NCBI RefSeq assembly: GCF_003324185.1
Contig: NZ_PXUP01000020.1
Coordinates: 1 to 47,315 of the forward strand
From: Faecalibacterium prausnitzii
GTDB taxonomy: Bacteria; Bacillota; Clostridia; Oscillospirales; Ruminococcaceae
Length of the DNA stretch: 47,315 bases
Direction of reading: 5' to 3'
The position numbers and the translations under genes are program-made. Numbering within the stretch: the first letter of the stretch is position 1; every line of letters starts with the position of its first letter. The notes beneath the pieces are model-generated. The model had not been told where the DNA came from. It saw only the letters and a list, made by a program, of their open reading frames with translations, and searched no databases. Below, one piece after another: positions 10,545 to 37,208 of the stretch.

Positions 10545-10574
10545 CTTTACCCTAAAATCGGAAGGAGGAACGCA

Positions 10575-18532: not shown

Positions 18533-18576
18533 CGGGCAAAGTTTCTGCATATCGCCCGTATTCCCGCATCGATTTT

Positions 18577-18609: not shown

Positions 18610-18652
18610 TTATTTCTTTCGATTTTGCGGTAAACAATATATCATCATGCCG

Positions 18653-18676
18653 CCATTGTGCGGCATTTTCTTTTTG
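18653..18676 (+). terminator. Hairpin with T-rich tail before the relaxase
   Basis: ATGCCGC pairs with GCGGCAT around a short CATTGT-containing loop, followed by TTTCTTTTT. It sits just ahead of the relaxase ribosome-binding site, so it could attenuate relaxase expression. Confidence 0.45.
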
Positions 18677-18692
18677 CCGGGAGGTGGTAGAA

Positions 18693-20136: not shown

Positions 20137-20479
20137 TTATAGAAGCATTTGGTACAAATGCGCAGCCTGCATCCAGCGGATGCAGTACACAAAGGGTTTG
20201 GGACTACCCCAACAAGCATTTTGCAACGCAAAAATGGCGTTTGTATATACGAACGCCCTGCTTGCACACGCTACGCACCCTTTTAGAGTGCTTCCTTTAT
20301 ACACAGACCGTATCGTGTCAACACGCACTGCCACAAAGGTGGTGCTAAAGATTTGTGGCAGTAGCACATTGATTTTATATATGGAAAAGTGTACAATAAC
20401 AATTGATTAACAGAACACATCTGACGAAATAAATTATAAATTCACAAGCAAACATTACTTTTCATGGGCAGAATGGTAT
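20137..20479. other. Gene-free stretch with five inverted repeats and a promoter
   Basis: No convincing gene lies here. In order it holds GCATTTG/CAAATGC (20145-20161), CTGCATCC/GGATGCAG (20167-20185), ATTTTGC/GCAAAAAT (20218-20235), GGCGTT/AACGCC around a central GTATATAC (20236-20257), and CTGCCACAAA/TTTGTGGCAG (20328-20361), then the promoter of the sulfur operon. The cluster may be a second oriT-like or recombination region, a set of operators, or the scar where the cargo operon joined the backbone. Confidence 0.6.
20369..20397 (+). promoter_or_regulatory. Predicted promoter of the sulfur-modification-like operon
   Basis: TTGATT (20369-20374), 17 bases, and TACAAT (20392-20397) form a sigma-A-type promoter. 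The 10-bp inverted repeat at 20328-20361 ends eight bases upstream and would suit an operator. It is the only clear promoter I see before the operon starting at 20480. Confidence 0.6.
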
Positions 20480-21637
20480 GTGTCTGATCGGATTGCCGCA
20501 GATTTCAGGTATAGTGCTGCTCGTTTACGGAATGTTGGATTGGATAACACAATGAGCAGAGATACCGCACTTTCCAATTTAATAGCTCTGGCACAGAGGC
20601 AAGGATATGTTTTGACCGATGACATCCTTGATGAGGGTGACGATCTTTCGCTAATGGACATCGACTGGCTTTCCTCGGCGTTGGTGTCAAAGGGTGTCTT
20701 GGTATATGATGAGGCTCCCGCTATAAAAGACACGGTCAGCACAAGCGCAGCAGAAACTTATGATTACGCTCAAAGCGATTATGAAGAAACATACAAGAAA
20801 GCAATCGCTTTATCCCCGGAATCTCAAGGCATTATTGACTCAATAAAATCCATACTTCCGCCGCAACGAGGAGAATTTGACACACTAAAATATCAGGTCG
20901 TAGATGGAAATTCGTATGCGCGCCAACGTGTTATTGAAATGCACCTTCGTTTTGCTGTGCGCGTTGCAGTGTCGTTTGTCGAAAGATATGGCATACAATT
21001 CGAGGACGCGTTTTCTCTCGCCTGCATTGGGCTAGTGACTGCGGTTGATAAATATGATCCAGATACAGACGGCTCCATCGGTTCGTTCATCTCATACTAC
21101 ATGATGCAGGTCATCAATCGTGAGATGCCCTTGCCATGTAAGGAAGTGTACTATCCCGTCCACGTTAAAGAGCGGTGGACACCTGTCTATTTGCAGTTGA
21201 AAAAAGATGGTTGTGTCGGGTGCAATGATCTCCCGTGCTGCAAATACGAAAAGGAAAAAATAAAGGAAACATTTCCAGACATATCGTTTCCAGATATTCA
21301 GGAGATGATTCGGATGTCTATGAGCGAAATTTCTCTTTCAGAATTAGCTGAGAACGAGGAAGAACCAACTACAACCTCTGCCCTAGAGCAAATTTCCGCT
21401 GATTTGAAGCAGCATGAGCAGACTAAAGCCTTAAATAAAGCGTTGGAAACGCTAACACCACGCGAAAAGGATGTTATGATTTTACGGTATGGTCTACTTG
21501 ATGATAACCCTTTTACTCTCGAAGAAGTAGGTCAGAAGTATTCAGTTACCCGTGAGAGAATCCGGCAAATCGAAGCGAAAGCTCTGCGCAAACTCAACAC
21601 AAAAAAGACTCTTAGGATACTTGAAGAAAACCTGTAA
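20480..21637 (+). CDS. Sigma-70-like protein with a four-cysteine cluster
   Basis: This protein has up to 385 residues. A sigma-1.1-like segment near 30-75 (NLIALAQRQGYVLTDDIL...LMDIDWLSSALVSKGVLVYDEAP) is followed by region-2-like RVAVSFVERYGIQFEDAFSLACIGLVTAVDKYDP (about 155-195). The C-terminus is a clear region 4 (LTPREKDVMILRYGLLDDNPFTLEEVGQKYSVTRERIRQIE). Between regions 2 and 4 lies C245-x2-C248-x4-C253-C254, which could bind zinc or an iron-sulfur cluster. GTG 20480 is the first usable start; ATG 20551 is an alternative, and neither has a strong ribosome-binding site. It is first in the operon, 35 bases before the DndC-like gene, so it may direct transcription of the island. That role is inferred. 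Confidence 0.8.
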   Translation: MSDRIAADFRYSAARLRNVGLDNTMSRDTALSNLIALAQRQGYVLTDDILDEGDDLSLMDIDWLSSALVSKGVLVYDEAPAIKDTVSTSAAETYDYAQSDYEETYKKAIALSPESQGIIDSIKSILPPQRGEFDTLKYQVVDGNSYARQRVIEMHLRFAVRVAVSFVERYGIQFEDAFSLACIGLVTAVDKYDPDTDGSIGSFISYYMMQVINREMPLPCKEVYYPVHVKERWTPVYLQLKKDGCVGCNDLPCCKYEKEKIKETFPDISFPDIQEMIRMSMSEISLSELAENEEEPTTTSALEQISADLKQHEQTKALNKALETLTPREKDVMILRYGLLDDNPFTLEEVGQKYSVTRERIRQIEAKALRKLNTKKTLRILEENL

Positions 21638-21672
21638 TCTTTTGCGGATTTAAAATGAAAGTGAGAATTTAG

Positions 21673-23388
21673 ATGTGGTGCAAGAACTGCAACATCGAAA
21701 CGAATGACCCAATCTGCCCGATCTGCGGTAGCAAGACGGTTGAAGATATTCCTGTTGAGGTGTACTGGTGCCCAGAATGTAAAGTGCCAGTTATCAATAC
21801 AACCACGCAAGCGGATAAGGGACTTTGCCCGCTTTGCGGTCACAAGACGAAGTATTTGTCTGCCGATCTGCGTCCTGTATTCCCGGAGGAACGTCTGTTG
21901 CTGGAGCTTTTGCTGGGAAAAAAGCCCTATGAGTATATGCAGAAGTCTGTCTGGGCAGCGAACAGCAGCTATTATATTGATGGTAAGCGCGTGGCACTTC
22001 CCGCAAAGTTCTTTGAAAAAGCAGACACAGACGAGCTTTCAAAGCAGTTGGAAGAATATAAAGGCGAAAACAGCTACGAATACTTCAATGTTTACGCAGA
22101 ACGGTTCTGTGAAGCAAACAGAAACCGCTTGAATTATCTTGTTGATGAAGCATCTGAGTTCGTGCGAAATGCTGCTTCCAAATTTGATGAGGAACGGCTG
22201 GTCGTGTCCTTTTCTGGAGGAAAGGATTCCACCGTCACGGCAGATTTGGCAATCAACGCACTGGGGACATCCAGTATTGTTCATATTTTCGGCAACACGA
22301 CGTTGGAATTTCCTACGACTGGCGAATATGCTGAACGCTATCGCCATAATCATCCTCATGCCATTTTTATGGTGGCAAAAAATGAGGAGCAAAACTTTAT
22401 AGATGTCTGCGAGGACATTGGGCCACCCGCCCGGATGATGCGCTGGTGCTGCTCAATGTTCAAAACAGGGCCTATTACGCGGACACTAAACAGTCTGTTC
22501 CGTAATGAGCAGATTTTGACTTTTTATGGTATCCGCAAAGCAGAATCTGTCAGCCGCAGCAAGTATAATCGTATCGAGGATGATGCGGAGTCTGTTAAAA
22601 TCCAAAAACAGACGGTTGCATCTCCCATCTTCTTCTGGAAAGATATTGATATTTGGCTGTACATTTTGAGCAAAAAGATAGATTTCAATTACGCATACCG
22701 CTTGGGCTATGACCGTGTGGGATGCTGGTGCTGCCCGAACAACAATCAACGCGCACAGTTCTTGTCCAGAATCTATATGCCGGAGAAATCAAAGGCATGG
22801 CGAGAATTTTTGGTTCGCTTTGCAAAGAAAATTGGAAAGCCGGATGCCGAGGAATACGTTGACTCTGGCAAGTGGAAGGCGCGTCAGGGCGGCAACGGTC
22901 TGGCAACTGCCGGTGATGTGAAGATTAAATTCACGAATTGCACAGCAGAGGATCATGCGAAGATTTATCGACTTGTTCGCCCCTATGATGACGAACTGAT
23001 TGGGATGTTCGTTCCTTTCGGTCGGGTGGCACCTGAACTCGGTCAGAAACTTCTGAATGAAACTATCGTTCTGGATGTGCGAACGAATGTCCCCATCCTT
23101 TCGATTCAACCCTTTACGCATGATGGATATGAGTATGCGGTAAAAGTGCGTACAATGAATGTTGCAGACCACGATGACCTGCAACGGATGGTTGGTTATC
23201 AGATTCGCAAGTTTAATGCTTGCCGAAAATGCCTGAAATGCGAATCGCTTTGCAGAGCCGGAGCGATTTCAATCATCGGAGATTACTATTACATCAATCC
23301 TGCCAAATGCGTTCATTGCAAAATGTGCGTAACCCCTAAATACCTAGATGGCGGATGTATGATGAACAAATATTTGAAAACAAAATGA
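21673..23388 (+). CDS. DndC-like PAPS-reductase-family protein with zinc ribbons and ferredoxin tail
   Basis: This 571-residue protein has N-terminal zinc ribbons (CKNC at 3-6, CPIC near 15-18, CPEC and CPLC further on). An ATP pyrophosphatase core carries the PP-loop SGGKDS at about 180-185, and GCWCCPNN near 352 is typical of PAPS-reductase/DndC proteins. The C-terminus is ferredoxin-like (CRKCLKCESLC near 517 and CVHCKMC near 547), probably holding an iron-sulfur cluster. DndC-type enzymes activate the DNA backbone for sulfur insertion during phosphorothioation. Here the fused ferredoxin suggests a self-contained electron donor. It sits between the sigma-like gene and DUF4007. The DNA modification itself is inferred from family and context. 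Confidence 0.88.
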   Translation: MWCKNCNIETNDPICPICGSKTVEDIPVEVYWCPECKVPVINTTTQADKGLCPLCGHKTKYLSADLRPVFPEERLLLELLLGKKPYEYMQKSVWAANSSYYIDGKRVALPAKFFEKADTDELSKQLEEYKGENSYEYFNVYAERFCEANRNRLNYLVDEASEFVRNAASKFDEERLVVSFSGGKDSTVTADLAINALGTSSIVHIFGNTTLEFPTTGEYAERYRHNHPHAIFMVAKNEEQNFIDVCEDIGPPARMMRWCCSMFKTGPITRTLNSLFRNEQILTFYGIRKAESVSRSKYNRIEDDAESVKIQKQTVASPIFFWKDIDIWLYILSKKIDFNYAYRLGYDRVGCWCCPNNNQRAQFLSRIYMPEKSKAWREFLVRFAKKIGKPDAEEYVDSGKWKARQGGNGLATAGDVKIKFTNCTAEDHAKIYRLVRPYDDELIGMFVPFGRVAPELGQKLLNETIVLDVRTNVPILSIQPFTHDGYEYAVKVRTMNVADHDDLQRMVGYQIRKFNACRKCLKCESLCRAGAISIIGDYYYINPAKCVHCKMCVTPKYLDGGCMMNKYLKTK

Positions 23389-23407
23389 TAAGGCGGGAAT
23401 TTTAGCC

Positions 23408-24295
23408 ATGAAATTTAGAGCACATGATACCTTTTTCATCCGAAAAGGATGGTTGAGCAAAGGAATGAAAGCTGTCCAGACGAAACCAGATGTCTTTGTT
23501 GCAAAAGATGAGAATCCGATGGATGTTCTTGGCATCGGCTCTAACATGGTAAAGGCTCTCCGCTACTGGCTTGTAGCAACAAATCTTACGGAAGAAGCGA
23601 TTCAAAACAAAAAAAGAATTCAGAAGTTCACGGATTTCGGAACACAGGTTTACAAGAACGACCGTTACATGGAAGAATACGGTACGCTGTATCTTTTGCA
23701 CTATATGCTTTCCAAAAATCAAGAGGACGCAACTGCATGGTATTTCTTCTTCAACGAATTCAATATGTCTGAATTTACAAAGGAGGATTTCGTTTCTGCT
23801 TTGCAGAATTATGTGTCCATGAATGGCGAATCTGTTGCCATTCGCTCTATGTCAGATGATTTTGCCTGCATCCTCAACACCTATCTTCCGCGCTATAAGA
23901 CAAGCCCGACACGAGTTAATCCTGAAAACAATATCGACTGTCCGCTGGGTGAACTTGGACTTGTGGATATTTTGGATAAAAGCAAGAAAACCTATCGGAA
24001 GTCTATTTCAATGCCAGAAACCCTCCATCCGTGGGTCTTGATGGCCGTTATGTGCGATCAAGCAGAGGGACGAACTGAAATTGGTCTGAATGAGCTGCTT
24101 ACCGCAAAAAGCAACATTGGTAAAACATTCAATCTGGATGCGATTACTATGTTGGATGCACTTCATCGGGTCGAAAAAATGAGATTGGTCAAGATCATTC
24201 GCACCGCAGGTCTTGATGTTATCCGTCTTGAGCAGTGTTACTCTTTTACAGAATGTGTAGATAAATACTACGAGTGCATTTCCAAAATTGATTAA
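23408..24295 (+). CDS. DUF4007 family protein
   Basis: This 295-residue protein has the DUF4007 pattern: MKFRAHDTFFIRKGWLSKGM, PMDVLGIGSNMVKALRYWL, then YGTLYLLHYMLS. DUF4007 proteins are known as neighbours of DndC-type PAPS reductases in sulfur-modification and defence loci. Their molecular role is not established; the fold suggests a DNA-binding adaptor. ATG 23408 follows AAGGCGGG. Spacing is 19 bases from the DndC-like gene and 12 bases to the next ATPase gene, so the three are one operon. Confidence 0.88.
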   Translation: MKFRAHDTFFIRKGWLSKGMKAVQTKPDVFVAKDENPMDVLGIGSNMVKALRYWLVATNLTEEAIQNKKRIQKFTDFGTQVYKNDRYMEEYGTLYLLHYMLSKNQEDATAWYFFFNEFNMSEFTKEDFVSALQNYVSMNGESVAIRSMSDDFACILNTYLPRYKTSPTRVNPENNIDCPLGELGLVDILDKSKKTYRKSISMPETLHPWVLMAVMCDQAEGRTEIGLNELLTAKSNIGKTFNLDAITMLDALHRVEKMRLVKIIRTAGLDVIRLEQCYSFTECVDKYYECISKID

Positions 24296-24307
24296 GGGGA
24301 AAGTTTA

Positions 24308-27300
24308 ATGAGTGAAATGATTTCGGTAGCGGAAGGTTTTCAGTATTCCGTAAATATTGCCTATGACCTTCACGCAGACGATAAATTAAAAAGCTATATT
24401 CCTACACAGTCTGCACTCCAGCTGATGGAGGATATTTTACAGAGTACTCTGCCAACATCTACAGATCGGTCGCGCGTTCTGATTGGCGCGTATGGCAAGG
24501 GAAAATCTCATATTGTTTTGACGATTCTCGCCCTTCTGATGAAGCGAGATCTGCGCCTCTTTGAAAAGCTGATGCCGGCAGTCCAGAAGCGTGACAAGCT
24601 GAATCGACTCATCCAGAACTATTATGAGAGCAACAACAAGCTGCTGCCCGTTATCATTACTGGCAGCAACACAAGCCTCACGCAGGCTTTTCTTTTGGCA
24701 CTTCAGCAGACATTAAAGGAAAATGATCTGCTGGACATCATGCCGGAAACGAATTATAAGGCGGCTATTTCTGTTATTGAACGCTGGAAAAAAGATTTTC
24801 CTGATACCTATCAGCAGTTCAAGGATAAAATTTCTGATACCTTGCCTTCGTTTATCTCTCGCTTGGAAGATTATGACATCAAAGCGTATGAGGCGTTTGA
24901 ACGCATTTATCCTAGCTTGACAGCAGGCAGCACATTTAATCCTTTTGTTGGATTTGATGTTGTACAACTGTATGAGAGCGTGGTTCAGGCACTGAAGCCT
25001 CTCGGTTATACGGGTGTATATGTCATATATGATGAGTTCAGCAAGTACCTTGAAGCCAATATCTCGGAGGCATCTGTCAGCGACACAAAGATGCTTCAGG
25101 ATTTCGCAGAAAAGTGTAATCGTAGTGGCACAAGTCAGATGCACCTTATGCTGATTTCCCACAAGGAAATTGCCAATTATATTGACCGACTGCCAAAGCA
25201 AAAAGTCGATGGCTGGCGCGGTGTTTCTGAGCGGTTCACTCATGTTCATCTAAACAACAACTTTACGCAGACATACGAAATTATCGCAACGGTCATTCAG
25301 AAAAAAGCTGATTTATGGAATCAGTTCAAAGAGAACCATCAGAAAGAGTTCGCTGAATTAGCAAAACGATATGCAACGCATCGAATTTTTGCAGATATGC
25401 AGGCTGAAGATATTGAACGTACAGTTCAAGCCTGCTATCCGCTTCATCCGGTGTCTACGTTTGTTCTGCCGAGATTGTCTGAGCGTGTAGCCCAGAATGA
25501 GCGTACCCTCTTTACCTTTTTGTCCTCGAATGGGTCGGCAACGCTGCCTTCGTTCTTAAAGCAGTACGATGATACTTCGTTTGAAGTAGTTACGCCGGAT
25601 CAGATTTATGATTACTTTGAGCCACTGTTCAAGAAGGAAATCGCAAACGGAACCCTGCATGATATTTACTTTCTGACCAGCGTTATCCTGAATCAACTCG
25701 ACGATGGCTCGCTAGAGGAAAAAATTGTAAAGACCCTATCCCTGATTTATATGCTGGAGCAGTTTGAAAAGCTCACTCCGACAAAAAATGAATTGATTGG
25801 AATTTACTCCATCCAGTATCCTGTTCCTGAAATCGAGCGGGCATTAAATAATTTGATCGATGACGAGTATGTCATCTACCTCAAGCGCAGCAATGACTAC
25901 CTCCAGCTGAAGGAAAGCTCTGGGGTGGATATTGAAGCCAAAATCAAGGATACGATCGCATCTCAGCAAAGCAGCACTGTTGTCAAAAAGGTTCTGAATG
26001 CATCGAACTTTGACAGCTGCATTTATCCGCTTCGCTACAACGATGAAAAAGAAGTCACCCGATACTTTGACTTTACATTCATTGATGAATCGGAGATCAC
26101 GGAAGATGTCAACTGGCAGGCAAAGCAGCTGAATACTGAAGCAGATGGCATCGTATATGCGGTCATCCCCCACAGCAGGGAAGCAATCGGTCGAATCGCA
26201 GACATTATCAAGCAAACCAGCAGATACTGCTCGAATTGTGTATTTATTGTTCCTCGCAAATTTGTTCCGATTGACTTTACTGTTCGGGAATACAAAGCAG
26301 TGGAAACGCTGAAGGAACTGGCGGCATCTGACAAGGTTCTTTTTGATGAATATGAGGTGATTTACGAAGATCTCCGTGAAATCATCAACCACTATATCAG
26401 CGATTATACTCACCCAGAGAAAAGAGCAGCCACCTATATCTACAAGGGCGAGGAAAAGCAGATCGTCCGTAAGGCTGCATTGACCGATTTGCTGTCTACG
26501 ATTTGCGGCAGTCTTTACTTCAATACCCCTGTTATCATCAATGAGGCAGTAAACAAGAATCATCTGACCGCGAATTCTCTGAATAGCCGCAGTAAAATTG
26601 TCATCGGTCTGCTGCGCTCGGAATTAGAGCCTAATCTCGGCTTGGCTGGTTCCGGTCAGGAAGTGTCGATTCTTCGGAGTACGCTGATCCGAACTGGTGT
26701 GTTAGAAACCGAGAATGGCGTACCCAGAATCAACCTGCACCCTAAAGATTATCTCATGTCGAAGCTGATGGGTGAGATCGAAGGCTTCGTACAGGAAGCA
26801 CGAACTCAAAAAATGAGTTTTTCAGACCTGTATGAACGGTTGACTACCGCTAAGTGCTATATCGGATTGAGAAAGGGACTTGTCCCCATTTATGTCGCGG
26901 CGGTATTCCACGAATACAAGAAAGAAATTATAATCTATGATCGCTTCTCGCAGGTTCCTCTGAACAACGATACCCTGCTCCAGATTGAAGCGGCTCCGCA
27001 GGATTTCACATTGCAGTGTCTGGATTGGAATGGCGAAAAAGACAAGTATGTCGAAGCACTGGCAAATGTGTTCAAGGATTATGTTATCGAAGCGGAAAAA
27101 ACGGCAGCGGGTTATGGATATGTCGTATCTGCGATGCACAGATGGTATATGGAACTGCCCAAATATGCAAAGGAGTCCAAGCATTCGCCAGATGGACAGC
27201 AAATCGATAAGGTAAAGCGTCAATTCCTCCGTATGCTGAAGCAGAACATCGGTACACACACGCTCTTGTTTGAACGGCTCCCCATTCTCATCACGGGACA

Positions 27301-27922
27301 AGCCGACTGCAATGTAGAAATCGCAGATGCCGTTGCTGAAATCAAGTTCTTCTACGATCAGATTCTTGGGCAGTTGGAGTCCACATTCTGCAAAGAGGTG
27401 AAGAAACTCTTTGGCTCTGAACAGGATGATGCGATGATGGAGAAGAAATCTCTGCCGAGTGTGGTTTCCGAATGGGCAGGACAGCTTGATTCGACGATTC
27501 GCAATCAGCTTTTTGCAGATGGAACGGACAGAATGCTCCAGCTTTTCTTTGCAGATGAAAGTTTAAGCGAACACGCCCTTACACTGAGATTGGCAAAACT
27601 GGCAACAGACCTGAATCTAAGCGATTGGGATGCAGATACGCAGGCGGAAGCACTGGAAAATGTCAAACGCTATAAGGCAACGGCTGAAGGGTTCCATGCC
27701 GAAGCCGAAACGGATGCAGCGGAGGCAGTTAATGGCTACCAGCTGACCTATGAGGATGAAACTGGACGTGCTGTGACAAAGCGTTTTGATAAGGTTGAAA
27801 CCAGCAGCCGCGGAAAGCTGCTTTATAATATGATTGAGACAGCAATCACTGGTATGGGACAGGCTGTTTCTGAACAGGAAAAGCGTCAGATTCTCATGGA
27901 TGTTCTGAGAGAACTGTGCTAA
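24308..27922 (+). CDS. Large P-loop ATPase (BrxC/DUF6079-like)
   Basis: This 1204-residue protein has an N-terminal ATPase: Walker A GAYGKGKSH (about 59-67), Walker B VYVIYDEFSKYL (about 237-248) and a sensor-like LMLISHKEI. The rest is helical with no other motif I can name. Size and layout resemble BrxC/PglY-type ATPases of BREX or DUF6079 proteins, but the match is by general pattern only. In dnd systems an ATPase such as DndH plays a comparable restriction role. ATG 24308 follows AAGGGGAAAG. It is the largest gene of the operon and presumably powers DNA interrogation or remodelling. Confidence 0.8.
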   Translation: MSEMISVAEGFQYSVNIAYDLHADDKLKSYIPTQSALQLMEDILQSTLPTSTDRSRVLIGAYGKGKSHIVLTILALLMKRDLRLFEKLMPAVQKRDKLNRLIQNYYESNNKLLPVIITGSNTSLTQAFLLALQQTLKENDLLDIMPETNYKAAISVIERWKKDFPDTYQQFKDKISDTLPSFISRLEDYDIKAYEAFERIYPSLTAGSTFNPFVGFDVVQLYESVVQALKPLGYTGVYVIYDEFSKYLEANISEASVSDTKMLQDFAEKCNRSGTSQMHLMLISHKEIANYIDRLPKQKVDGWRGVSERFTHVHLNNNFTQTYEIIATVIQKKADLWNQFKENHQKEFAELAKRYATHRIFADMQAEDIERTVQACYPLHPVSTFVLPRLSERVAQNERTLFTFLSSNGSATLPSFLKQYDDTSFEVVTPDQIYDYFEPLFKKEIANGTLHDIYFLTSVILNQLDDGSLEEKIVKTLSLIYMLEQFEKLTPTKNELIGIYSIQYPVPEIERALNNLIDDEYVIYLKRSNDYLQLKESSGVDIEAKIKDTIASQQSSTVVKKVLNASNFDSCIYPLRYNDEKEVTRYFDFTFIDESEITEDVNWQAKQLNTEADGIVYAVIPHSREAIGRIADIIKQTSRYCSNCVFIVPRKFVPIDFTVREYKAVETLKELAASDKVLFDEYEVIYEDLREIINHYISDYTHPEKRAATYIYKGEEKQIVRKAALTDLLSTICGSLYFNTPVIINEAVNKNHLTANSLNSRSKIVIGLLRSELEPNLGLAGSGQEVSILRSTLIRTGVLETENGVPRINLHPKDYLMSKLMGEIEGFVQEARTQKMSFSDLYERLTTAKCYIGLRKGLVPIYVAAVFHEYKKEIIIYDRFSQVPLNNDTLLQIEAAPQDFTLQCLDWNGEKDKYVEALANVFKDYVIEAEKTAAGYGYVVSAMHRWYMELPKYAKESKHSPDGQQIDKVKRQFLRMLKQNIGTHTLLFERLPILITGQADCNVEIADAVAEIKFFYDQILGQLESTFCKEVKKLFGSEQDDAMMEKKSLPSVVSEWAGQLDSTIRNQLFADGTDRMLQLFFADESLSEHALTLRLAKLATDLNLSDWDADTQAEALENVKRYKATAEGFHAEAETDAAEAVNGYQLTYEDETGRAVTKRFDKVETSSRGKLLYNMIETAITGMGQAVSEQEKRQILMDVLRELC

Positions 27923-27943
27923 TCCCTAAAGGAGAGAATAAGT

Positions 27944-29089
27944 ATGGCTTACTTTGATAACGCTGCAACAACATACCCAAAGCCAGATAGGGTCTACTCT
28001 TTCATGGATGAGTTCTATCGCAAGTGTGGCGGCAATGTTGGGCGCGGTGATTATGGCATTGCTAAATCTGCTGGTGCGCTCGTTGCGGACACAAGAATGC
28101 GCCTTCAGGAACTTTTGCACTGTCCGGCAAAGCAGGTCGTATTTACTCCGACAGCAACGATTGCGCTAAATATTATCCTTCAGGGACTGTGCAGGATGGG
28201 AAAGAAGAATTTCTATATCAGCCCTTTTGAACATAATGCTGTAACAAGGACACTGCATTATTTTGAAAACACAGGCGAAATCAATGTGACACAACTCGCT
28301 GTGACATCCGATTTTCGATATGATCTCGAAAAAATACGGTATCAGTTTGATGATTGCAAGCCGGATGTTGTTGTTGTCAGTCATGCCAGCAATGTGATTG
28401 GCTTGATTGCGCCTGTTGCTGAAATCTTTGAATTGGCTAAAAAGTACGGCAGCTACACTGTCCTCGATATGTCACAGACCGCTGGACTGGTAGATTGCGA
28501 TGTTGGCCGAACTACATTCGATTTTGCAGTGTTTGCTGGGCACAAAACACTGTATGGCCCGACCGGAATCTCTGGATTCGTGATGAAGCCAGAAATTCAG
28601 CTGCCGGCAGTGCTATTTGGCGGAACAGGATATGACTCTGCCAATCAGGATATGCCAGACAGCTTGCCCGAAAGATATGAGATGGGCACATCCAACATTG
28701 CCGGTATTGCAGGGCTGAACGCAGCGTTGCAGTGGAGTCAAGAAATCGGATTGCAGATAATATTCGAGCATGAACAACAAAATCGTAAAAAGCTGCTGGA
28801 TATTCTATCACAGTACGATTTTATTACTGTCGTTGGCAATTCTCCTGAGCAGCAGTATGTGGGCATCGTTTCCTGCCTGTTTGAAGGAATCAGCAGTGAC
28901 ATTGCAGGCAACCTTTTAAGCAAACAGGGGGTATCTGTGCGGACAGGTCTGCACTGTGCGCCGCTTGCGCATAAGTTCTTGGGCACCTACCCGGCTGGCA
29001 CGATTCGGTTCAGCGTAGGGTATTTTACAAGCGAAGATGATTACAAAGCCTTAGTCGAGGCTCTCGATTATATCGAACAAGCCATCTGA
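27944..29089 (+). CDS. Cysteine desulfurase (DndA/SufS-like)
   Basis: This 381-residue PLP enzyme (aminotransferase class V) takes sulfur from cysteine and hands it on as persulfide. It starts AYFDNAATTYPKP. The PLP lysine is Lys201 in GHKTLYGPTG, the PLP-binding aspartate region is TVLDMSQTAG, and the active cysteine is Cys338 in RTGLHCAPLAH. It lies inside the operon with a DndC-like and a DndD-like gene and so most likely serves as the DndA-equivalent sulfur donor. GGAGAG precedes ATG 27944. Confidence 0.93.
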   Translation: MAYFDNAATTYPKPDRVYSFMDEFYRKCGGNVGRGDYGIAKSAGALVADTRMRLQELLHCPAKQVVFTPTATIALNIILQGLCRMGKKNFYISPFEHNAVTRTLHYFENTGEINVTQLAVTSDFRYDLEKIRYQFDDCKPDVVVVSHASNVIGLIAPVAEIFELAKKYGSYTVLDMSQTAGLVDCDVGRTTFDFAVFAGHKTLYGPTGISGFVMKPEIQLPAVLFGGTGYDSANQDMPDSLPERYEMGTSNIAGIAGLNAALQWSQEIGLQIIFEHEQQNRKKLLDILSQYDFITVVGNSPEQQYVGIVSCLFEGISSDIAGNLLSKQGVSVRTGLHCAPLAHKFLGTYPAGTIRFSVGYFTSEDDYKALVEALDYIEQAI

Positions 29090-29102
29090 AGGAGATCACA
29101 TC

Positions 29103-31331
29103 ATGTCCTTTCCTGACCATAATATAAAAAGTGAATATCGATCCCTGATTGATAATGTTGTTCAGGATTTTTATCTTCCTATCCTTGGCGATGCAATCTG
29201 CTATAAGAGAGCTGTGGGGTTCTTTTCTTCTTCCGCACTGGCAGAAATTTCAAAGGGTATTTGCAAAATGGCTAGTCACGGCGGAAAAATCGAAATCGTA
29301 GCATCTCCATATCTTTCGGAAGAAGATATGAAAGCCATACAGCAGGGCTATCAGAACAGGGAAACTTATATCAAGGAAGCGATTTTAAGACAAATTCGTG
29401 AGGAAGATGTATCAGACGACTATTATACATTAGAACGACTGAATCTTCTTACGAAGCTGATAGAAGATGATATTCTTGATATAAAAATTGCCTATACCGA
29501 AAAAAATGGCGGTATTGGAATGTACCATGAAAAGATGGGTCTTATGGAAGATTCATCCGGAAATACGATAGCGTTCTCTGGCTCAATGAATGAATCCGCA
29601 ACCGCCATGGAAGTAAACTATGAAACAATTGATGTCTTTTGCGGTTGGAAAAGTGATTATGAACGAGATCAGGTTGCACTAAAGAAGAAGGCTTTTGATT
29701 CTATTTGGAACGATAAGGAGTGCGGAATAAAGGTCATTGCTGCCCCGGAAATAACGCAAGCACTGATAAAGAAGTTTCAAAGACAGGCTCCTGTGAGCTT
29801 CCGGTTGGATGAAGAACAGTTCAAAAAAGATAAGAAGTCTGCCACAAGAGTTGCCACTGAAAATCCGATTGGCGCACGGATGCCCGAAGAAATACAGTTG
29901 AGAGACTATCAGCAAGCTGCCGTTGCTGCATGGGCTGGCTCAAATTATCGTGGAATATTCTCTATGTGTACGGGTGCTGGCAAAACAATCAGCGGTCTGG
30001 CAGCTGTCGCAAAGTTATCGCAAGATTTGAACGATTGCCTTGCAACAATTATCGTCTGCCCATACCAGCACCTTGTAGAACAATGGGTCGAAGATATTGT
30101 CAAATTCAATATTAAGCCTATCATAGGGTATAGTTCATCCTCTCAAAAAGATTGGAAAAAGAGACTCGAAAAGGCCATTCGAGATCAGCGCATGATACCA
30201 AAGAAAAGTTTTTTCTGTCTTGTTTGTACCAATGCAACATTCTCTAGTGCTTTTGTGCAAGAACAGATAGATAAAATCAAAGCTCCAATACTCCTAATGG
30301 TTGACGAAGCACATAATTTTGGCGCACAGAGAATCCGAAAGCTCCTTGATGATCGCTTTACATATCGATTGGCTCTGTCCGCAACGATGGATCGCCATCG
30401 AGATGAAGAAGGCACGGCAGCTTTGTATAACTTTTTTGGAAAAAAGTGCATTGATTATACGCTGGAACAAGCTATTAGAGATGGGAAGCTGACTCCGTAC
30501 AAATATTATCCCGTAGTCGTATATCTTTCTGATGACGAGTTGGAAAAATATTCGGAGATTTCTTCGGAAATGGCAAAGCACATCATTCAAGGTCGAAGCG
30601 GCAATGCCAAATTAGATTCTTATGGTGAGATGCTGGCAATCAAGCGGTCACGAGTAGTTGCGGGAGCAATCGCAAAGATTTCAGAATTGCGAAAACAGAT
30701 AGAGCCATATAAAAATCAAAATAACATTTTGGTTTACTGTGGTGCGACCAATATACTTGATGAAAAATCTGACGATTCGGATGTTGATAGTGGAGACATC
30801 AAACAAATTGATGCCGTTACTCATATGCTCGGTAATGAATTGGGAATGCGAGTGGCTCGCTTTACGTCACGCGAAAGCATAGAGGAACGAACTACTATCA
30901 AGGAAAAATTTCAGGATGATGGCAAACTTCAGGCAATTGTTGCGATAAAGTGTCTGGACGAGGGTGTTAATATTCCCGGAATCAAAACGGCATTTATCCT
31001 CGCTAGCACAACGAATCCGAAAGAGTATATCCAACGCAGAGGTCGTGTTTTAAGAAAAGCTCCGGGAAAAAGTTATGCGGAAATCTATGATTTTGTGACG
31101 CTTCCAAGACCATTGGATGAAGTACCGGGGTTAACGATTGAACAAGCAAATCGGGATGTTTCGCTTGTGAAGAATGAATGCGCAAGAATGCAGGAATTTG
31201 CAGCGCAGGCGCTGAACGGAATGGATGCCCAGACATTGATCTGGGACATTCAGGAAGTCTACCATATTGAAACCATCGAAGATGTTGGGGTTGAAGCTGA
31301 GTTTGCAAAAGAAATAAAGTCTAGTGACTGA
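29103..31331 (+). CDS. PLD-nuclease / superfamily II helicase fusion
   Basis: This 742-residue protein joins a phospholipase-D-type nuclease and a helicase. The single HKD-like motif is H142-E-K144 with ED and FSGSMNES following (about 142-163). Helicase motifs are Walker A CTGAGKT (near 289), MVDEAH (about 399-404), LALSATMDR, and QRRGRVLRKAPG (near 645). One HKD motif per chain implies a dimer for nuclease activity. Such fusions are common in restriction and defence loci. Here it is a plausible effector that cuts unmodified DNA. It lies 13 bases after the desulfurase gene. Confidence 0.9.
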   Translation: MSFPDHNIKSEYRSLIDNVVQDFYLPILGDAICYKRAVGFFSSSALAEISKGICKMASHGGKIEIVASPYLSEEDMKAIQQGYQNRETYIKEAILRQIREEDVSDDYYTLERLNLLTKLIEDDILDIKIAYTEKNGGIGMYHEKMGLMEDSSGNTIAFSGSMNESATAMEVNYETIDVFCGWKSDYERDQVALKKKAFDSIWNDKECGIKVIAAPEITQALIKKFQRQAPVSFRLDEEQFKKDKKSATRVATENPIGARMPEEIQLRDYQQAAVAAWAGSNYRGIFSMCTGAGKTISGLAAVAKLSQDLNDCLATIIVCPYQHLVEQWVEDIVKFNIKPIIGYSSSSQKDWKKRLEKAIRDQRMIPKKSFFCLVCTNATFSSAFVQEQIDKIKAPILLMVDEAHNFGAQRIRKLLDDRFTYRLALSATMDRHRDEEGTAALYNFFGKKCIDYTLEQAIRDGKLTPYKYYPVVVYLSDDELEKYSEISSEMAKHIIQGRSGNAKLDSYGEMLAIKRSRVVAGAIAKISELRKQIEPYKNQNNILVYCGATNILDEKSDDSDVDSGDIKQIDAVTHMLGNELGMRVARFTSRESIEERTTIKEKFQDDGKLQAIVAIKCLDEGVNIPGIKTAFILASTTNPKEYIQRRGRVLRKAPGKSYAEIYDFVTLPRPLDEVPGLTIEQANRDVSLVKNECARMQEFAAQALNGMDAQTLIWDIQEVYHIETIEDVGVEAEFAKEIKSSD

Positions 31332-31359
31332 GTTTAGTATCCATAAAGGAGGATTAACA

Positions 31360-31527
31360 ATGGCGGATTCTAACCAAGTTGATGAAAAAGTTGTTCGTAG
31401 GCTGATGAACAAAATCATTATTCAGGAAAATCGGAACAACAAATCGAGGGCAAAATCGGACTCGCAGATGGTTACGGAAATCAAAAAGATGATTGAGGAG
31501 GAAGTAAAATGCTTATCGAATCAATAA
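31360..31527 (+). CDS. Small unrecognised operon protein (55 residues)
   Basis: ATG 31360 lies seven bases after AAAGGAGG (31346-31352), a strong site, so this short frame is probably translated. The product is a charged, helical protein (DEKVVRRLMNKIIIQENRNN, then EIKKMIEEEVKC) without recognised domain. It overlaps the DndD-like gene by 19 bases, which suggests coupled synthesis and perhaps a small subunit of that ATPase. Confidence 0.7.
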   Translation: MADSNQVDEKVVRRLMNKIIIQENRNNKSRAKSDSQMVTEIKKMIEEEVKCLSNQ

Positions 31528-33506
31528 AGCTGCAAAATTTTCGGCAATTTCAGAACGAGTTTATCTCTTTCGCAGATGGCTCTGATGGAAAGAACGTGAC
31601 CATTATCCTTGGCGAAAACGGCAGCGGAAAAACGACTTTTGCGCAGGCTTTCTTTTGGTGTATGTACGGTGAGACTTCTTTCTTGGACAAAAAATTGCTC
31701 AATACAAAAGTAGCAAGCAAGATGATTCCGGGAGCAAAAGAGACTGTGCGAGTGGAACTCTGCCTCAAGCATGGAGTGCTCGATTATGTTTTGACAAGAG
31801 AACAGGTCTATGTGAGAGACTACACTAAGATCACACCTCAAAATTCAGTTTTTGCCGTTGCGACAAAGCAGCCAGATGGAACACTTTCCTATGAAAAAAA
31901 GACTGCTTGTGAGGATGCGGTAAAGAATATTCTTCCCAAAGAACTGTCACGCTATTTCTTCTTTGATGGCGAACGCATCGAGAAGATGAGCAAAGACATT
32001 GCCGGCAACAAGAAAAGCGACGATTTTGCTCAGGCGGTCAACGGTTTGCTCGGCTTGAACGGAATGCTCTCTGCAATCAATCATTTCAGAGGCTCCTCTG
32101 GTGTTATTGGCAGCTTTGACAAAGCCTATGACAGAAACAGTGATTCCAAGATTGCACAATATTCGGAAACGATTGTGCGCTGTCAGGACAGAATTGATGA
32201 GATCACAGAGGCGCTTGAACTAGCACGGGAACAACAAGAACAAGCTAGCAAGCGTCTTGTTGAGAAAGCTCAAGAAATCAAGAAATATGATGATGGAAAG
32301 AAACTGCAAAAAGAAAGAGAAGAACTTGAGAGAAGCATCGAGACAGCTAAAAAGCATCGTGCGCAGACCTGTCGGGAAATGTTTCAGGCGTTTAATGCAG
32401 GAGCAAGTTCATTCTTTTCTAAAAGCCTGATTTACCGTGCCATGCAGGTGCTGAAAGACGAAACCATTCCGAATGCAGATATTCCGTATATGCATGTCAA
32501 GACAATCGAATATCTTCTCCGCCAGAAAAAATGTATTTGTGGAACCCATTTGGATGAAGGCACAGTTCCTTATGAGAATGTCAAGGCTCTGATGGATTAC
32601 CTACCCCCTCAATCAATTAGCACAACGGTTTCTCAATTCAAAAAGGATGCAAAAAGCAGGATTTCTGCGCTTAATAGAACAAATATTCCTGATGCAATTT
32701 CGGCATCCTATACTTTTATCAGTGACGATGATGACACAATCACCGATAAGGAAGATGAACTCCGCCGACTGGAAAGTAAGATGGCATCTAGCGATGACAT
32801 AACAGCAGCCGTCAGAAAATTGGAAATGGAAATCCAGCAGTGCAAGAAATCCATTTCTATGCAGACTAGTACAATTGCAGACCTTACTTCGGAGCGGGAT
32901 GACAAAATCAGTACGCGCGACAGCGCTGAAAAGGATCGGCGCGAACTCAGTCTAAAGGATGACAAGAACCGTTTGATTGAAGTTTGTCGCCTTTACGCAG
33001 GTGAAATTTTCAATCAGCTTACTAGTACATATCAGGCAAGCGAAAAAGAAGTGCGCGATAAACTTCAGGCTACGATCAATAGTATTTTCAACGACATTTA
33101 TGATGGTGGGTTGGAGCTTTCCATTGATGAAAAGTATCACATTACAGTGACGGTCACTGGCTTTGGCGATGATAATGTGGAAACGTCTACCGCACAGAGC
33201 ATTTCGGTTATTTTTGCGTTCATTGCAGGTATCATCAAAATGGCTCGTGAAAACAAGAATGCAAGCTCTGAGAACCTGCGGATGCTTGAATCTGAGCCGT
33301 ATCCTTTGGTAATGGATGCACCTTTGTCCGCATTTGACAAGAAGCGTATTGAGGCTGTATGTAAAGCATTGCCTGATGTTGCTGAGCAAGTTATCATCTT
33401 TATAAAGGATACGGATGGTGATTTGGCAGAGAAATACATGAGTGACAAAATCGGTAGCCGACATCATTTTGAAAAGATCGATGAGTTTGAAACGCATCTT
33501 GTATAA
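31509..33506 (+). CDS. DndD-like SMC/Rad50-type ATPase
   Basis: This 665-residue ATPase has the DndD layout: N-terminal LQNFRQFQ and Walker A GENGSGKTT (35-43), long coiled coils on both sides of a hook-like CICG (C342, C344), and a C-terminal half with the signature-like STAQSISVIFAFIAG and Walker B YPLVMDAPLSAFD (near 600). DndD partners DndC in DNA phosphorothioation, so this supports a sulfur-modification operon. Similar SMC proteins also occur elsewhere, so the assignment rests on both sequence and neighbours. Confidence 0.87.
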   Translation: MLIESIKLQNFRQFQNEFISFADGSDGKNVTIILGENGSGKTTFAQAFFWCMYGETSFLDKKLLNTKVASKMIPGAKETVRVELCLKHGVLDYVLTREQVYVRDYTKITPQNSVFAVATKQPDGTLSYEKKTACEDAVKNILPKELSRYFFFDGERIEKMSKDIAGNKKSDDFAQAVNGLLGLNGMLSAINHFRGSSGVIGSFDKAYDRNSDSKIAQYSETIVRCQDRIDEITEALELAREQQEQASKRLVEKAQEIKKYDDGKKLQKEREELERSIETAKKHRAQTCREMFQAFNAGASSFFSKSLIYRAMQVLKDETIPNADIPYMHVKTIEYLLRQKKCICGTHLDEGTVPYENVKALMDYLPPQSISTTVSQFKKDAKSRISALNRTNIPDAISASYTFISDDDDTITDKEDELRRLESKMASSDDITAAVRKLEMEIQQCKKSISMQTSTIADLTSERDDKISTRDSAEKDRRELSLKDDKNRLIEVCRLYAGEIFNQLTSTYQASEKEVRDKLQATINSIFNDIYDGGLELSIDEKYHITVTVTGFGDDNVETSTAQSISVIFAFIAGIIKMARENKNASSENLRMLESEPYPLVMDAPLSAFDKKRIEAVCKALPDVAEQVIIFIKDTDGDLAEKYMSDKIGSRHHFEKIDEFETHLV

Positions 33507-33520
33507 AGGGGGCAAGTACG

Positions 33521-34069
33521 ATGTTTGACAAGCAATATAGATTCAAAGGCTCCCATGCGGTTCGCGTTACAAAGCTAACGAGTATATTTGAATCCATTAA
33601 GGGCATTCCGACCAAAGTATTCGAGCGCAATGTTGATGTCCTGTGTAATGCTCCGTTGATTGGATTTTTGTATAATCGTACAGCGGAGCTTGATAACACA
33701 AAGAACCCGACAACGGGTGAAGTAGACACTACGAATATCATGGGTGATCGTGTGATCTACTCCTCTGAAGAAATGCTTTTCAACTTCAGGCTGATTATGC
33801 TTTTGGATAGTGTGTATGAGCCTGATGCTCAGAAACGACTTGATAAAGCATTCCGCAAACACGAACCAGCGGATGAAGAACACTATGATAGTTATGTGCG
33901 TGGTGGCGTAGATGTTCTCTACGAAAAGCTCGTGGATGGAGCCACCTCTACAGATGATTTTGTCAACCGTCTCTCTGATTTCATCACTGAATTCGATGAG
34001 CGATTCAATGCGGATATTTCGGATGAAGCCCTGGCAAAATGCTTCATCCCGTCAGAAAATAATAACTAA
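33521..34069 (+). CDS. Unrecognised 182-residue protein of the sulfur operon
   Basis: I do not recognise this protein. It is soluble, acidic and helical, with RFKGSHAVRVTKLTSIF at the start and VDVLCNAPLIGFLYNRTAELDN near 40-60. It does not resemble DndE, which is shorter and basic. AAAGGGGG precedes ATG 33521, and the gene is 14 bases after the DndD-like gene. A strong terminator follows, so it ends the first transcription unit of the island. It may take the place of DndE or DndB. Confidence 0.75.
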   Translation: MFDKQYRFKGSHAVRVTKLTSIFESIKGIPTKVFERNVDVLCNAPLIGFLYNRTAELDNTKNPTTGEVDTTNIMGDRVIYSSEEMLFNFRLIMLLDSVYEPDAQKRLDKAFRKHEPADEEHYDSYVRGGVDVLYEKLVDGATSTDDFVNRLSDFITEFDERFNADISDEALAKCFIPSENNN

Positions 34070-34079
34070 CACGGTGGAC

Positions 34080-34112
34080 AAGCCTGTGCTCATATCGGGC
34101 ACAGGCTTTTTT
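34080..34112 (+). terminator. Rho-independent terminator inside the accessory island
   Basis: AAGCCTGTGC (34080-34089) pairs with GCACAGGCTT around a nine-base loop, followed by a T run ending at 34112. The next ATG (34117) lies only five bases beyond it. Confidence 0.9.
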
Positions 34113-34116
34113 GTAT

Positions 34117-34497
34117 ATGAATAAGACTTGCAAAGAAATCCAAAATGAACTAATTCATTCGGAAACTAAAATAAGTCAAAGCGACTTTCTGAAAATTTGC
34201 GAAAAGCATAACCTATCTCTAATTGAAGTAGATGAGCTTTCTAAAAGTATTTCTGATTTGCAGTTGTTTCTCAACGATAATACGGAATCTGCCGATGAAG
34301 ATGAGCTTATCAAAGCATTGAAAGGCTGCAATCTTCCGTATATTGATAATCGTCCTAAAAATGGTGTGCTGTGGGTTATAGGTGGAATTGAAATCAAGGA
34401 TATTATTGAGCAGCTTAGTGAAACAGGGTATGTGTTTCACTTTAAGGAATGCGGAGGAAAAGCAACAAAGAAACGTGCGGGCTGGTGGACGAAATAA
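34117..34497 (+). CDS. Sigma-1.1-like N-terminus with WWTK-type C-terminal domain
   Basis: This 126-residue protein has an N-terminal segment (KISQSDFLKICEKHNLSLIEVDELSKSI) that parallels the sigma-1.1-like part of the first gene of the island. The C-terminal domain reads LPYIDNRPKNGVLWVIGG and ends GGKATKKRAGWWTK, a small module I have seen at the ends of helicase-like and DUF3320 proteins. Its function is unknown. ATG 34117 follows the terminator by five bases and has no ribosome-binding site; TTG 34111 is inside the T run. The gene may be a displaced fragment, or it may be read from readthrough RNA. Confidence 0.65.
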   Translation: MNKTCKEIQNELIHSETKISQSDFLKICEKHNLSLIEVDELSKSISDLQLFLNDNTESADEDELIKALKGCNLPYIDNRPKNGVLWVIGGIEIKDIIEQLSETGYVFHFKECGGKATKKRAGWWTK

Positions 34498-34522
34498 AAT
34501 ATCAGATTGAAAGGATGTTTGG

Positions 34523-36199
34523 ATGAGTGAACAGTGTTTGGCATTAGTCGATTCCGTAAAATTGGCTAATAAAAAAATATCAATGGACGATCTCTTGGAT
34601 TTGTGCGATGAATACGACTTGTCTCCTAATGAAGTCGATTGGGTGACAAATTCTCTGTCTGCCTATCTGTCAGATTTTGATGAAAATTCATTTGAAGATG
34701 TATCCGATGATGATTCATTAGATGACCGCATTGACCTGACAGATATTTCATCCGTTAAGATTCTTGACATTGACAGCGGAATAACCGAACTTCCAGAACA
34801 TTTTTTTGAAAATGACAGCGACTTAGTCGAAATTCGTATTCCAGACAAGATCAAATCCATTGGAGAATTTTGTTTTTCAAAATGCCAAAATCTTGAAACA
34901 GTTGTTATTCCAAAATCGGTATGCTCTATTCAAGACGGAGCATTCACAATGTGTCCGAAGCTGAAAAGAATGGTGTTTTTAGGAAATCTGCCAGAAAGCC
35001 TTCCTGCTAGCCCTACTGTTCTGGTGGTTTATGGAAATAGTAAAAAGTCTAGTTACATCTCCCTTCCCAATAATGCCCTTGTCATCCTTATAAATGAAGA
35101 AATCAAAAAGTGGGCACATGAGTTTGATAATTTTTCTGTGGTAAGAGGATTTGCATATGCGACTTATAGCAGTGCGGCTTTTTCCGATAAAGTGATTCAA
35201 GGCAACAGAGAGTATATTGCAAAACATCACGAAGAATTATTCTACTATTCTATTGTGCGAAATGATAGAATCATCCTGCGCTATTTAATTGATAATAATC
35301 AGCTTCCAGAAAAAATAAGGTCTTGCACATTGGACAGATTATTATATGATGACTATCGAAAAGAAATCGAAGAAAAGGTACAAATCGTTTCTAATTATAT
35401 GGAACTTCACCCGTCAGATGTTGAATCCGACTGGGGTTACAAAATCGACCCAAAAAGGAACACTATCCTGTTGCAGTTTAGAGGACATTCTATTGACTGC
35501 GTGGAGGTTCCATCTGCAATAAAGGATTGTCCGGTGACAAGAATTGGTGCAAATACTTTTTCTCCAATAAATCCCAGTCGTGGTGTTATTCCAGAAGAAG
35601 TCACTATGCGACGCGAAATACGGAAAATCGTATTACCAACATCAATTAAGAAAATTGATGAAAACGCATTTTCCGACTGTAAGTATGTAACAATTTATAT
35701 TCCGCATACAGTTGAAAGCATTCATCCCAATGCGTTTGGCTCTAGAGTGACGATGAGCCGTATTCGATTGGTTGTCGAAAAGGGTTCCTGCGCCGAGCAT
35801 TTTGCGGTAGATAATAAAGTATACTATTATTATGATTATCCAGAATACGATCAGTCTGTGAATTTTATTATTTATAGAGCCTTAGAAAAGAAAAGAAGAA
35901 AAAAGAAAACTAGCGATGATGATAACGGCCCTTTTCAGAATGGGCTGGATGTCATCATCACCAAAGAAGATAGTACGCCGTTCTCAAAGTCAGCCCTTCA
36001 GGTAAGTGCTGAAGGATACGGAGTGATTGGCAGCGTTGGACTTCCCCAAACCATAAATCAGTTACCGGCTAGACTACTGGGAGAAAAATTCTTTTGTGTG
36101 GATGCAGATTATCTTAGTGGAATTATCGACGATAAGATGAATGCAAAAATCCTTGAAGCTTATCCTGAATATGCCGTATGTACTCTCCTGAAAAAATAA
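34523..36199 (+). CDS. BspA-type leucine-rich repeat protein with sigma-1.1-like N-terminus
   Basis: This 558-residue protein starts with a sigma-1.1-like segment (KKISMDDLLDLCDEYDLSPNEVDWVTNSL). LRR_5/BspA-type repeats follow (ITELPEHFFENDSDLVEIRIP, SIGEFCFSKCQNLETVVIP, SIQDGAFTMCPKLKRMVF), and more near 340-420 (KIDENAFSDCKYVTIYIP). There is no signal peptide, so unlike many BspA proteins it is probably cytoplasmic. Its role is unknown; repeats of this kind bind proteins. It is AT-rich and sits between the WWTK-type gene and the WYL regulator. Confidence 0.78.
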   Translation: MSEQCLALVDSVKLANKKISMDDLLDLCDEYDLSPNEVDWVTNSLSAYLSDFDENSFEDVSDDDSLDDRIDLTDISSVKILDIDSGITELPEHFFENDSDLVEIRIPDKIKSIGEFCFSKCQNLETVVIPKSVCSIQDGAFTMCPKLKRMVFLGNLPESLPASPTVLVVYGNSKKSSYISLPNNALVILINEEIKKWAHEFDNFSVVRGFAYATYSSAAFSDKVIQGNREYIAKHHEELFYYSIVRNDRIILRYLIDNNQLPEKIRSCTLDRLLYDDYRKEIEEKVQIVSNYMELHPSDVESDWGYKIDPKRNTILLQFRGHSIDCVEVPSAIKDCPVTRIGANTFSPINPSRGVIPEEVTMRREIRKIVLPTSIKKIDENAFSDCKYVTIYIPHTVESIHPNAFGSRVTMSRIRLVVEKGSCAEHFAVDNKVYYYYDYPEYDQSVNFIIYRALEKKRRKKKTSDDDNGPFQNGLDVIITKEDSTPFSKSALQVSAEGYGVIGSVGLPQTINQLPARLLGEKFFCVDADYLSGIIDDKMNAKILEAYPEYAVCTLLKK

Positions 36200-36218
36200 C
36201 AATGGTGGAGATCACAAG

Positions 36219-37208
36219 ATGGAAAATAAGACAAAATACCGAATTGTTTATCTGTACCAGCTTCTTGTCGAAAACTCAGATGAAAGTCATCCGCTTTCGA
36301 CCATAGAGATTATCGACCGGCTAAAGACAAAATATGACATTGATGTAAATCGAAATACTTTAGGAAAAGATTTGGAAGTCATGAAGCAAGGCGGCCTCCC
36401 TATCGAAATCATACATTCAACGCAAAATAAATACTACTATGATGGTCAACTGTTCGACCTTGCTGAATTGAAAGTCCTGATTGATGCCGTTCTTTCATCT
36501 AAGTTTATTACAGAGAAGAAAAGTCAAGAACTGATAAAACGTCTGTTGGCCTTAACTAGCGAGCAGAATGCAGATCAACTTCGTAGACATATTGATGTTT
36601 CTGACCGTGTGAAATCCGAAAATGAAAAAGGCTATTATATCTTAGATGCTATCAATTCGGCTATCGACTCCAAAAAGAAAATATCGTTTCAATACATTGA
36701 TTATGATGTCAACAAGCAGGTATTCCTAAAGCATGGCGGAAAAGCATACGTTGTAAGCCCCTATGAATTGATTTGGGATGGCGATTTTTACTATGTTGTC
36801 GGATATAATGATGCTCGCCAGAAAGTGCAGAATTTTAGGCTCGACCGGATTTTCAAGCGTCCCGAAATCCTTGCTGAGGCATCCACACCGATACCAATCA
36901 ATTTTGATCTGAATCTGTATAGGAAGTCGATTTTTCAAATGTTCGGCGCAGATGACACGGCAGAGGTCGAACTTTTCTGTCACCAGATCGTTATGAAGGC
37001 TCTGATTGACGTTTTTGGGCAAGATATTAGTACATGGGCTGTTGATTCGGAACATTTCATTGCAAAAATTAAAGTTTGTGTGAGTCCTACATTTTTGAGG
37101 TGGGTTTTTGCATGGAACGGCTTGGTTAAAATTGTGTCCCCTGAAGAAGTGTGCAATCGTTACTGTAAGATGCTAGAGACAGCCATAAATATACAAAGAA
37201 CAGAATAA
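36219..37208 (+). CDS. WYL-domain transcriptional regulator
   Basis: This 329-residue protein has an N-terminal winged HTH (ETHPLSTIEIIDRLKTKYDIDVNRNTLGKDLEVMK-type, about 22-55). A WYL domain follows (KKISFQYIDYDVNK ... YVVSPYELIWDGDFYYVVGYND), then an FRLDRI motif. WYL proteins often control defence islands and sense nucleic acid. It ends the plus-strand island, 19 bases after the LRR gene, and is the obvious candidate to bind the inverted repeat upstream of the operon at 20328-20361. That target is inferred. Confidence 0.9.
   Translation: MENKTKYRIVYLYQLLVENSDESHPLSTIEIIDRLKTKYDIDVNRNTLGKDLEVMKQGGLPIEIIHSTQNKYYYDGQLFDLAELKVLIDAVLSSKFITEKKSQELIKRLLALTSEQNADQLRRHIDVSDRVKSENEKGYYILDAINSAIDSKKKISFQYIDYDVNKQVFLKHGGKAYVVSPYELIWDGDFYYVVGYNDARQKVQNFRLDRIFKRPEILAEASTPIPINFDLNLYRKSIFQMFGADDTAEVELFCHQIVMKALIDVFGQDISTWAVDSEHFIAKIKVCVSPTFLRWVFAWNGLVKIVSPEEVCNRYCKMLETAINIQRTE

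Follow-up and report, generated by a model that had tools for sequence, protein, structure and literature searches.

The DNA analysed here, referred to as the window, is the whole of contig NZ_PXUP01000020.1 of Faecalibacterium prausnitzii assembly GCF_003324185.1 (47,315 bases). It carries an operon of nine plus-strand genes between positions 20480 and 34069, which encode, in order, a σ70-family factor, SspD, SspB, SspC, SspA, PbeA, PbeB, PbeC, and PbeD (Table 1). Our analysis suggests that this is a phosphorothioate (PT)-based defence operon, in which an Ssp-type modification module is coupled to a complete PbeABCD module with its own σ factor; we put the probability of this reading at roughly 0.78. 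An initial annotation had described a distinct type of system with sulfur modification and a phospholipase D (PLD) helicase, built from an unusual assortment of genes. Every gene it listed is present on the plus strand where it had been placed, and the distinctness survives in that two modules, recognised by homology, are joined in a pairing absent from the papers searched; the unusual assortment does not, as both modules are complete and known.

The modification half is predicted from its sequences to be a complete known SspABCD module with a BrxP-type SspD: it comprises SspA, SspB, an SspC with intact Walker motifs, and an SspD-type reductase. The PP-loop SGGKDS and the motif RWCC of SspD occur in 65 of 65 aligned rows, the window included; SspC keeps its Walker A (GKS) and Walker B (DE) motifs in 84 of 84 rows; and Lys201 and Cys338 of SspA, which we take to be the pyridoxal phosphate lysine and the catalytic cysteine, are found in all 74 rows, again with the window among them. 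SspB matches a solved SspB (6juf, 4.5e-23). The ATPase and the DUF4007 protein, listed earlier within an unusual gene set, are SspC and SspB, both known phosphorothioation components.

The reductase finds its best PADLOC match in BrxP (1.1e-80, followed by DndC at 1.2e-11 and SspD at 2.3e-10) and the ATPase also matches BrxC (Table 1), as would suit a derivative of BREX (bacteriophage exclusion) type 4 in which BrxP, DUF4007, and the BrxC-like ATPase keep their BREX roles and Pbe takes the place of PglZ and BrxL. BREX type 4 (brxPCZL) indeed has a BrxP-type reductase, a DUF4007 protein, a BrxC/SspC-type ATPase, and a desulfurase in common with the operon; moreover, SspC, SspD, and SspB are counted as homologous to components of BREX type 4, a subset of SspD having the BrxP layout (PMC12839542, available in part, as were the other papers cited by PMC number). 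We nevertheless consider such a derivation improbable: PglZ is kept in all 457 BREX type 4 taxa (PMC12839542), whereas the operon contig has none, and the ATPase is far closer to SspC than to BrxC (422 vs. 153 bits in PADLOC). The reported absence of PglZ and BrxL was borne out: a whole-genome Pfam search returned a single PglZ match, on another contig (C52), and neither PglZ nor BrxL is among the matches listed for the 18 window proteins, the search for BrxL not extending to the rest of the genome. With PglZ on another contig, a plain BREX type 4 system was rejected. That PglZ gene (G000:C52:44470-45000, L115) lies among open reading frames (ORFs) of BREX-like sizes.

The restriction half is likewise predicted to be a complete known PbeABCD module, with a PbeA that combines an HKD nuclease domain and a superfamily 2 (SF2) helicase, a small PbeB, a CxC-type PbeC, and a PbeD cognate to DndE. 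Residues H142, K144, and D150 and the motifs DEAH and QRRGR of PbeA are found in 57 of 57 aligned rows, and the CxC cysteines of PbeC in 51 of 51, the window included in both; against TIGR04095, PbeA scores 504 bits, under the cut-off of 600. The spacing of 12-35 bases once given for all genes up to 34069 is interrupted by a 177-base gap between pbeA and pbeC (31332-31508), which contains pbeB, a gene that the initial annotation had overlooked (31360-31527, 55 aa). Searching the gap in any frame, we found that all 54 loci, the window included, have one of pbeB size (47-62 aa); the frames of L069/L070, L080, L083, and L096 show little of the common pattern.

The 182-aa product of the last gene is probably a DndE-like PbeD, judging from a model whose best solved matches are three DndE entries. 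The window protein gave no PDB sequence match, no convincing Pfam match, and no family match of its own, and a profile comparison of it and of the proteins at the PbeD position of other loci with three DndE sequences gave no DndE link. The absence of dndE claimed earlier therefore holds only in part: Pfam DndE has no match anywhere in the host genome, but the operon contains this DndE-like protein. Of 299 genomes searched in the phylum, 4 had a canonical DndE. As for DndCDE modification, the reductase scores 36.5 bits with the DndC model, whose cut-off is 290, and the DndD-like gene (31509-33506) has PbeC as its best match, DndD not having been searched for elsewhere in the genome. A Dnd system was rejected for want of a DndE-family match in the genome.

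In the host genome (3.03 Mb) the SspC gene was found once. An alignment of six SspC sequences was scanned against a genome collection, and the best 80 of 129 relatives were kept, each with up to 10 kb on either side of SspC; what decided the choice of loci was their likeness to a single SspC clade. Many are metagenome bins whose phylum labels, taken from record titles, may be wrong, and the near-duplicates L059/L060 and L087/L088 are counted separately. Fourteen loci are too short behind SspC to be classed, including L105, which has a piece of PbeA at its edge. In the 66 classifiable loci, PbeA lies downstream on the same strand in 57, a set of SspF/SspG/DndH-like genes (FGH set) in 5, and a helicase-GHKL-PLD set in 4. 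All six large genes are present in 53 of the 57 Pbe loci, the other four ending before pbeC, and their order is identical in 53 of 53, with a gap above 600 bases somewhere among them in five; conserved co-occurrence across genomes, a check set beforehand, is thereby confirmed. The Pbe loci bear the labels of seven phyla, mostly Bacillota. Because the six genes recur in 53 of 57 loci in one order, chance assembly of the operon is very unlikely. On viral contigs, none of 130 pattern matches was confirmed as an SspC relative.

Table 1. Features of the operon and its surroundings (window coordinates).
Feature	Position	Strand	Remarks
Promoter-like site TTGATT-17-TACAAT	20369..20397	+	9 of 12 matches; upstream of operon
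σ70-family factor	20480..21637	+	first gene; start more likely ATG 20552, because of the alignment with relatives
SspD (BrxP type), predicted phosphoadenosine phosphosulfate (PAPS) reductase/PP-loop sulfurtransferase	21673..23388	+	C-terminal ferredoxin-like cysteine cluster
SspB (DUF4007), predicted DNA-binding/nicking subunit	23408..24295	+	Pfam PF13182 4.5e-82; PADLOC SspB 4.7e-61
SspC, 1204-aa BrxC/PglY-related AAA+ ATPase	24308..27922	+	PADLOC SspC 8.3e-127, BrxC 1.9e-45
SspA/DndA-like cysteine desulfurase	27944..29089	+	TIGR01977 444 bits (cut-off 377); PADLOC SspA 2.2e-44
PbeA, HKD (PLD) nuclease domain fused to SF2 helicase	29103..31331	+	PADLOC PbeA 5.1e-243
PbeB, 55 aa	31360..31527	+	overlaps pbeC start; called by place and size, without a family model
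PbeC, CxC-type ABC ATPase (DndD-like)	31509..33506	+	PADLOC PbeC 2.8e-105
PbeD, 182 aa, putative DndE-like partner of PbeC	33521..34069	+	model match to DndE
Terminator-like stem with T tail	34080..34108	+	12 pairs, 7 G-C; operon end
128-aa ORF in slot behind PbeD	34111..34497	+	outside operon
WYL gene	36219..37208	+	outside operon

Upstream of brxP, the sspD gene of these loci, an inverted repeat GTCC-N8-GGAC occurs in 11 of 71 upstream stretches (L034, L052, L054, L056, L086-L088, L090, L091, L099, and L100), compared with a rate of 0.005 per stretch in other parts of the loci and a mean of 0.16 (maximum 3) in shuffles; the window has no such repeat upstream of brxP. A 63-aa frame before brxP in L043 has what we take to be an Xre-like look. 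The helicase-GHKL-PLD set, found in L045 (14850-19295), L090, L093, and L104, is a third candidate restriction set behind SspA and consists of an SF2 helicase, an MzaB-like GHKL ATPase, and a DrmC-like PLD nuclease; a set of genes annotated in that order follows SspC on plasmid pTS1 of Treponema saccharophilum (L171).

The two halves of the operon exchange partners. Pairwise distances correlate closely inside each half (r 0.78-0.94 for the modification genes, 0.92-0.96 for PbeA, PbeC, and PbeD) but loosely between the halves (r 0.28-0.38); the Mantel p is ≤0.001 for the seven gene pairs tested, the pairwise distances being non-independent observations. The SspC tree (FastTree, 60 rows, several long branches) requires at least 10 changes between the Pbe and non-Pbe states, and the modification halves of L048 (Pbe) and L053 (FGH set) are 90.9% identical over 7,653 bases, with the similarity stopping inside sspA. 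One result qualifies this picture: in σ-bearing loci alone the SspC-PbeA distances correlate at 0.92, compared with 0.53 in σ-less loci, and most exchange is therefore between cassette classes.

Such exchange would also be expected if the Pbe module acted alone or by host suicide and the sulfur-marking neighbours were co-transferred cargo, and suicide has been proposed as one possibility (PMC10853773). A PbeA search at 1e-20 matched 43 of 398 genomes of the phylum, the host included; in many of them the match is confined to the PLD domain of a larger protein. Of the 20 places that rank next below the window, 10 carry SspB and SspC next to PbeA, one (L146) has Pbe and the σ factor without nearby Ssp genes, and nine, whose PbeA is 30-43% identical, show no SspB or SspC, although diverged Ssp genes would escape such a search. 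One of these nine (L157) has a DndE-family gene in the same region, and Pbe without Ssp neighbours also occurs on a Lactiplantibacillus plasmid. The collinearity of the six large genes in all 53 loci, spread over several phyla by record label, and the tight SspC-PbeA correlation within σ-bearing loci argue against independent action, and we regard it as highly doubtful.

We assign the σ factor to the Pbe half, since 25 of 47 Pbe loci have it after PbeD, against none of 12 non-Pbe loci (L029-L031 among the latter). In six other Pbe loci this slot is filled by a protein of 905-1019 aa: the three scanned match the RNA polymerase (RNAP) α C-terminal domain (α-CTD) and σ4, the σ4 match of L070 lying under the cut-off, and have no σ2 match, and the remaining three are relatives of the L037 protein by BLAST. 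The names of σ regions and of catalytic motifs used for the operon proteins are those we presume to apply. In L038, L048, L049, L055, L062, L066, L084, L098, and L100 the slot behind PbeD holds a fast-evolving acidic family of 242-481 aa; the five members scanned have no Pfam match above cut-off.

The σ70 protein aligns with solved σ factors over residues 113-385 and along most of its length with a σ factor of the same genome. It thus looks like a working σ factor; control of restriction-gene expression is its most likely role, favoured over promoter aiming. An alternative to regulation is that the σ-like protein acts as an effector or a sensor, a promoter-reading part guiding the Pbe complex to phage promoters or to transcribing polymerase; this would suit the α-CTD/σ4 proteins, whose DNA-reading parts, kept without the rest of σ, are better suited to aiming than to starting transcription, as well as the comparable proteins that precede PbeA in loci where SspB or SspC was not seen. 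The σ70 version fits that role poorly, and we hold it to be rather unlikely. The α-CTD/σ4 version, in which the scans found no σ2 domain, is hard to explain as a plain σ factor. In a bolder form, which we advance as speculation with the odds well against it, the σ70 or α-CTD/σ4 protein would be a fifth, promoter-reading Pbe subunit, and transcription starts of unmarked invading DNA would be the target or the trigger of restriction; if true, Pbe with its transcription-derived subunit would be a promoter-guided restriction system. A cysteine cluster in the σ factor (window residues 245-254) was considered as a metal site and dismissed, being common and not conserved throughout.

We saw the gene set, its order, the catalytic residues, the recurrence, and the module structure directly, and infer all biochemical steps. 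The operon probably puts a sulfur mark on host DNA and turns against DNA that lacks it: SspA would draw sulfur from cysteine; the PP-loop of SspD would activate a DNA phosphate and deliver the sulfur; and SspB and SspC would select and open (nick) the site, so that host DNA acquires a phosphorothioate. Scanning of DNA would fall to the PbeC-PbeD ATPase, which on unmarked molecules would recruit PbeA, its helicase and HKD nuclease unwinding the DNA and blocking replication or cutting; PbeB may be a small regulator or adaptor, and the σ factor may control the restriction genes so that marking precedes restriction, or aim the machinery at promoters. In the portions available, protection by PbeABCD depends on PT modification and no DNA cleavage was seen (PMC6459918), while cleavage by the HKD domain is argued for elsewhere (PMC10853773). 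The invariant H-K-D residues of PbeA fit the cleavage view and would not prove it.

To judge from our literature search, the novelty lies in the combination of the two modules, each already known, and in the Pbe-linked σ factor. The described pairings are Dnd-FGH, Dnd-Pbe, Dnd-DndI, Ssp-SspE, and Ssp-SspFGH (PMC6459918 and PMC8092258 among the sources, as far as their text was available), and a full-text search of partial coverage returned no description of an SspABCD-PbeABCD pairing or of a Pbe-linked σ factor. A survey of the human microbiome includes ssp and pbe genes and counts strains with modification genes plus pbeA-D, and the available part names no Ssp-Pbe operon (PMC7464106). SspABCD-SspE and SspABCD-SspFGH have the same families of SspA, SspB (DUF4007), and SspC and a PAPS-reductase SspD; the operon differs from them in its BrxP-type SspD with a ferredoxin domain and in restriction by PbeABCD. 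The haloarchaeal DndCDEA-PbeABCD system (Xiong 2019) has PbeA, PbeB, PbeC, and PbeD in the same order, whereas the operon is bacterial, has Ssp genes in place of DndCDE, and adds a σ factor. The best family match of this σ factor (PADLOC, NCBIfam) is MzaA, the σ70 of the MZA system, but at 120 bits against a cut-off of 800, and no other Mza model is among the matches listed.

According to the accessible text of PMC8092258, PT is made by IscS-SspBCD, which can work for either SspE or SspFGH, and 2,678 sspBCD clusters include 196 with sspFGH, 199 with sspE, and 36 more with both; most clusters are thus without either. Our survey shows one SspC clade, largely from Clostridia, to be frequently partnered by PbeABCD, with the helicase-GHKL-PLD set as a second candidate. 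One modification core with interchangeable cassettes would permit direct swap tests of how the sulfur mark is read.

The nine-gene operon is real, and its borders are marked by short signals. The promoter-like site upstream is weak evidence alone, as the region has 34 such sites with 35.9 expected in shuffles; of the 17 stems found (shuffles give 14.3 on expectation), the one at the end is the longest. Because this terminator-like stem (34080-34108) ends the operon, 34111-37208 is a separate block, and the single run once thought to continue into the WYL block is parted there. The leucine-rich repeat (LRR)/WYL block was rejected as an operon part: it lies beyond the terminator, and a WYL-like gene was seen in 5 of 80 loci. 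The 128-aa ORF resembles at its C-terminus the same-slot gene of L049 and L100. The N-termini of the proteins at 34111-34497 and 34523-36199 resemble, by eye in an alignment, that of the σ factor.

Upstream of the operon, a 2436-aa SNF2-helicase protein with a weak Eco57I-like match (10518-17828) and a MobA/VirD2 relaxase just before the operon (18486-20078) point to a mobile element. An HEC-04-like ATPase and its weakly LmuA-like neighbour (8399-10490) are a possible second defence set. The window also holds a group II intron end at the contig edge (1-75) and a pemK RNA (40730-40795).
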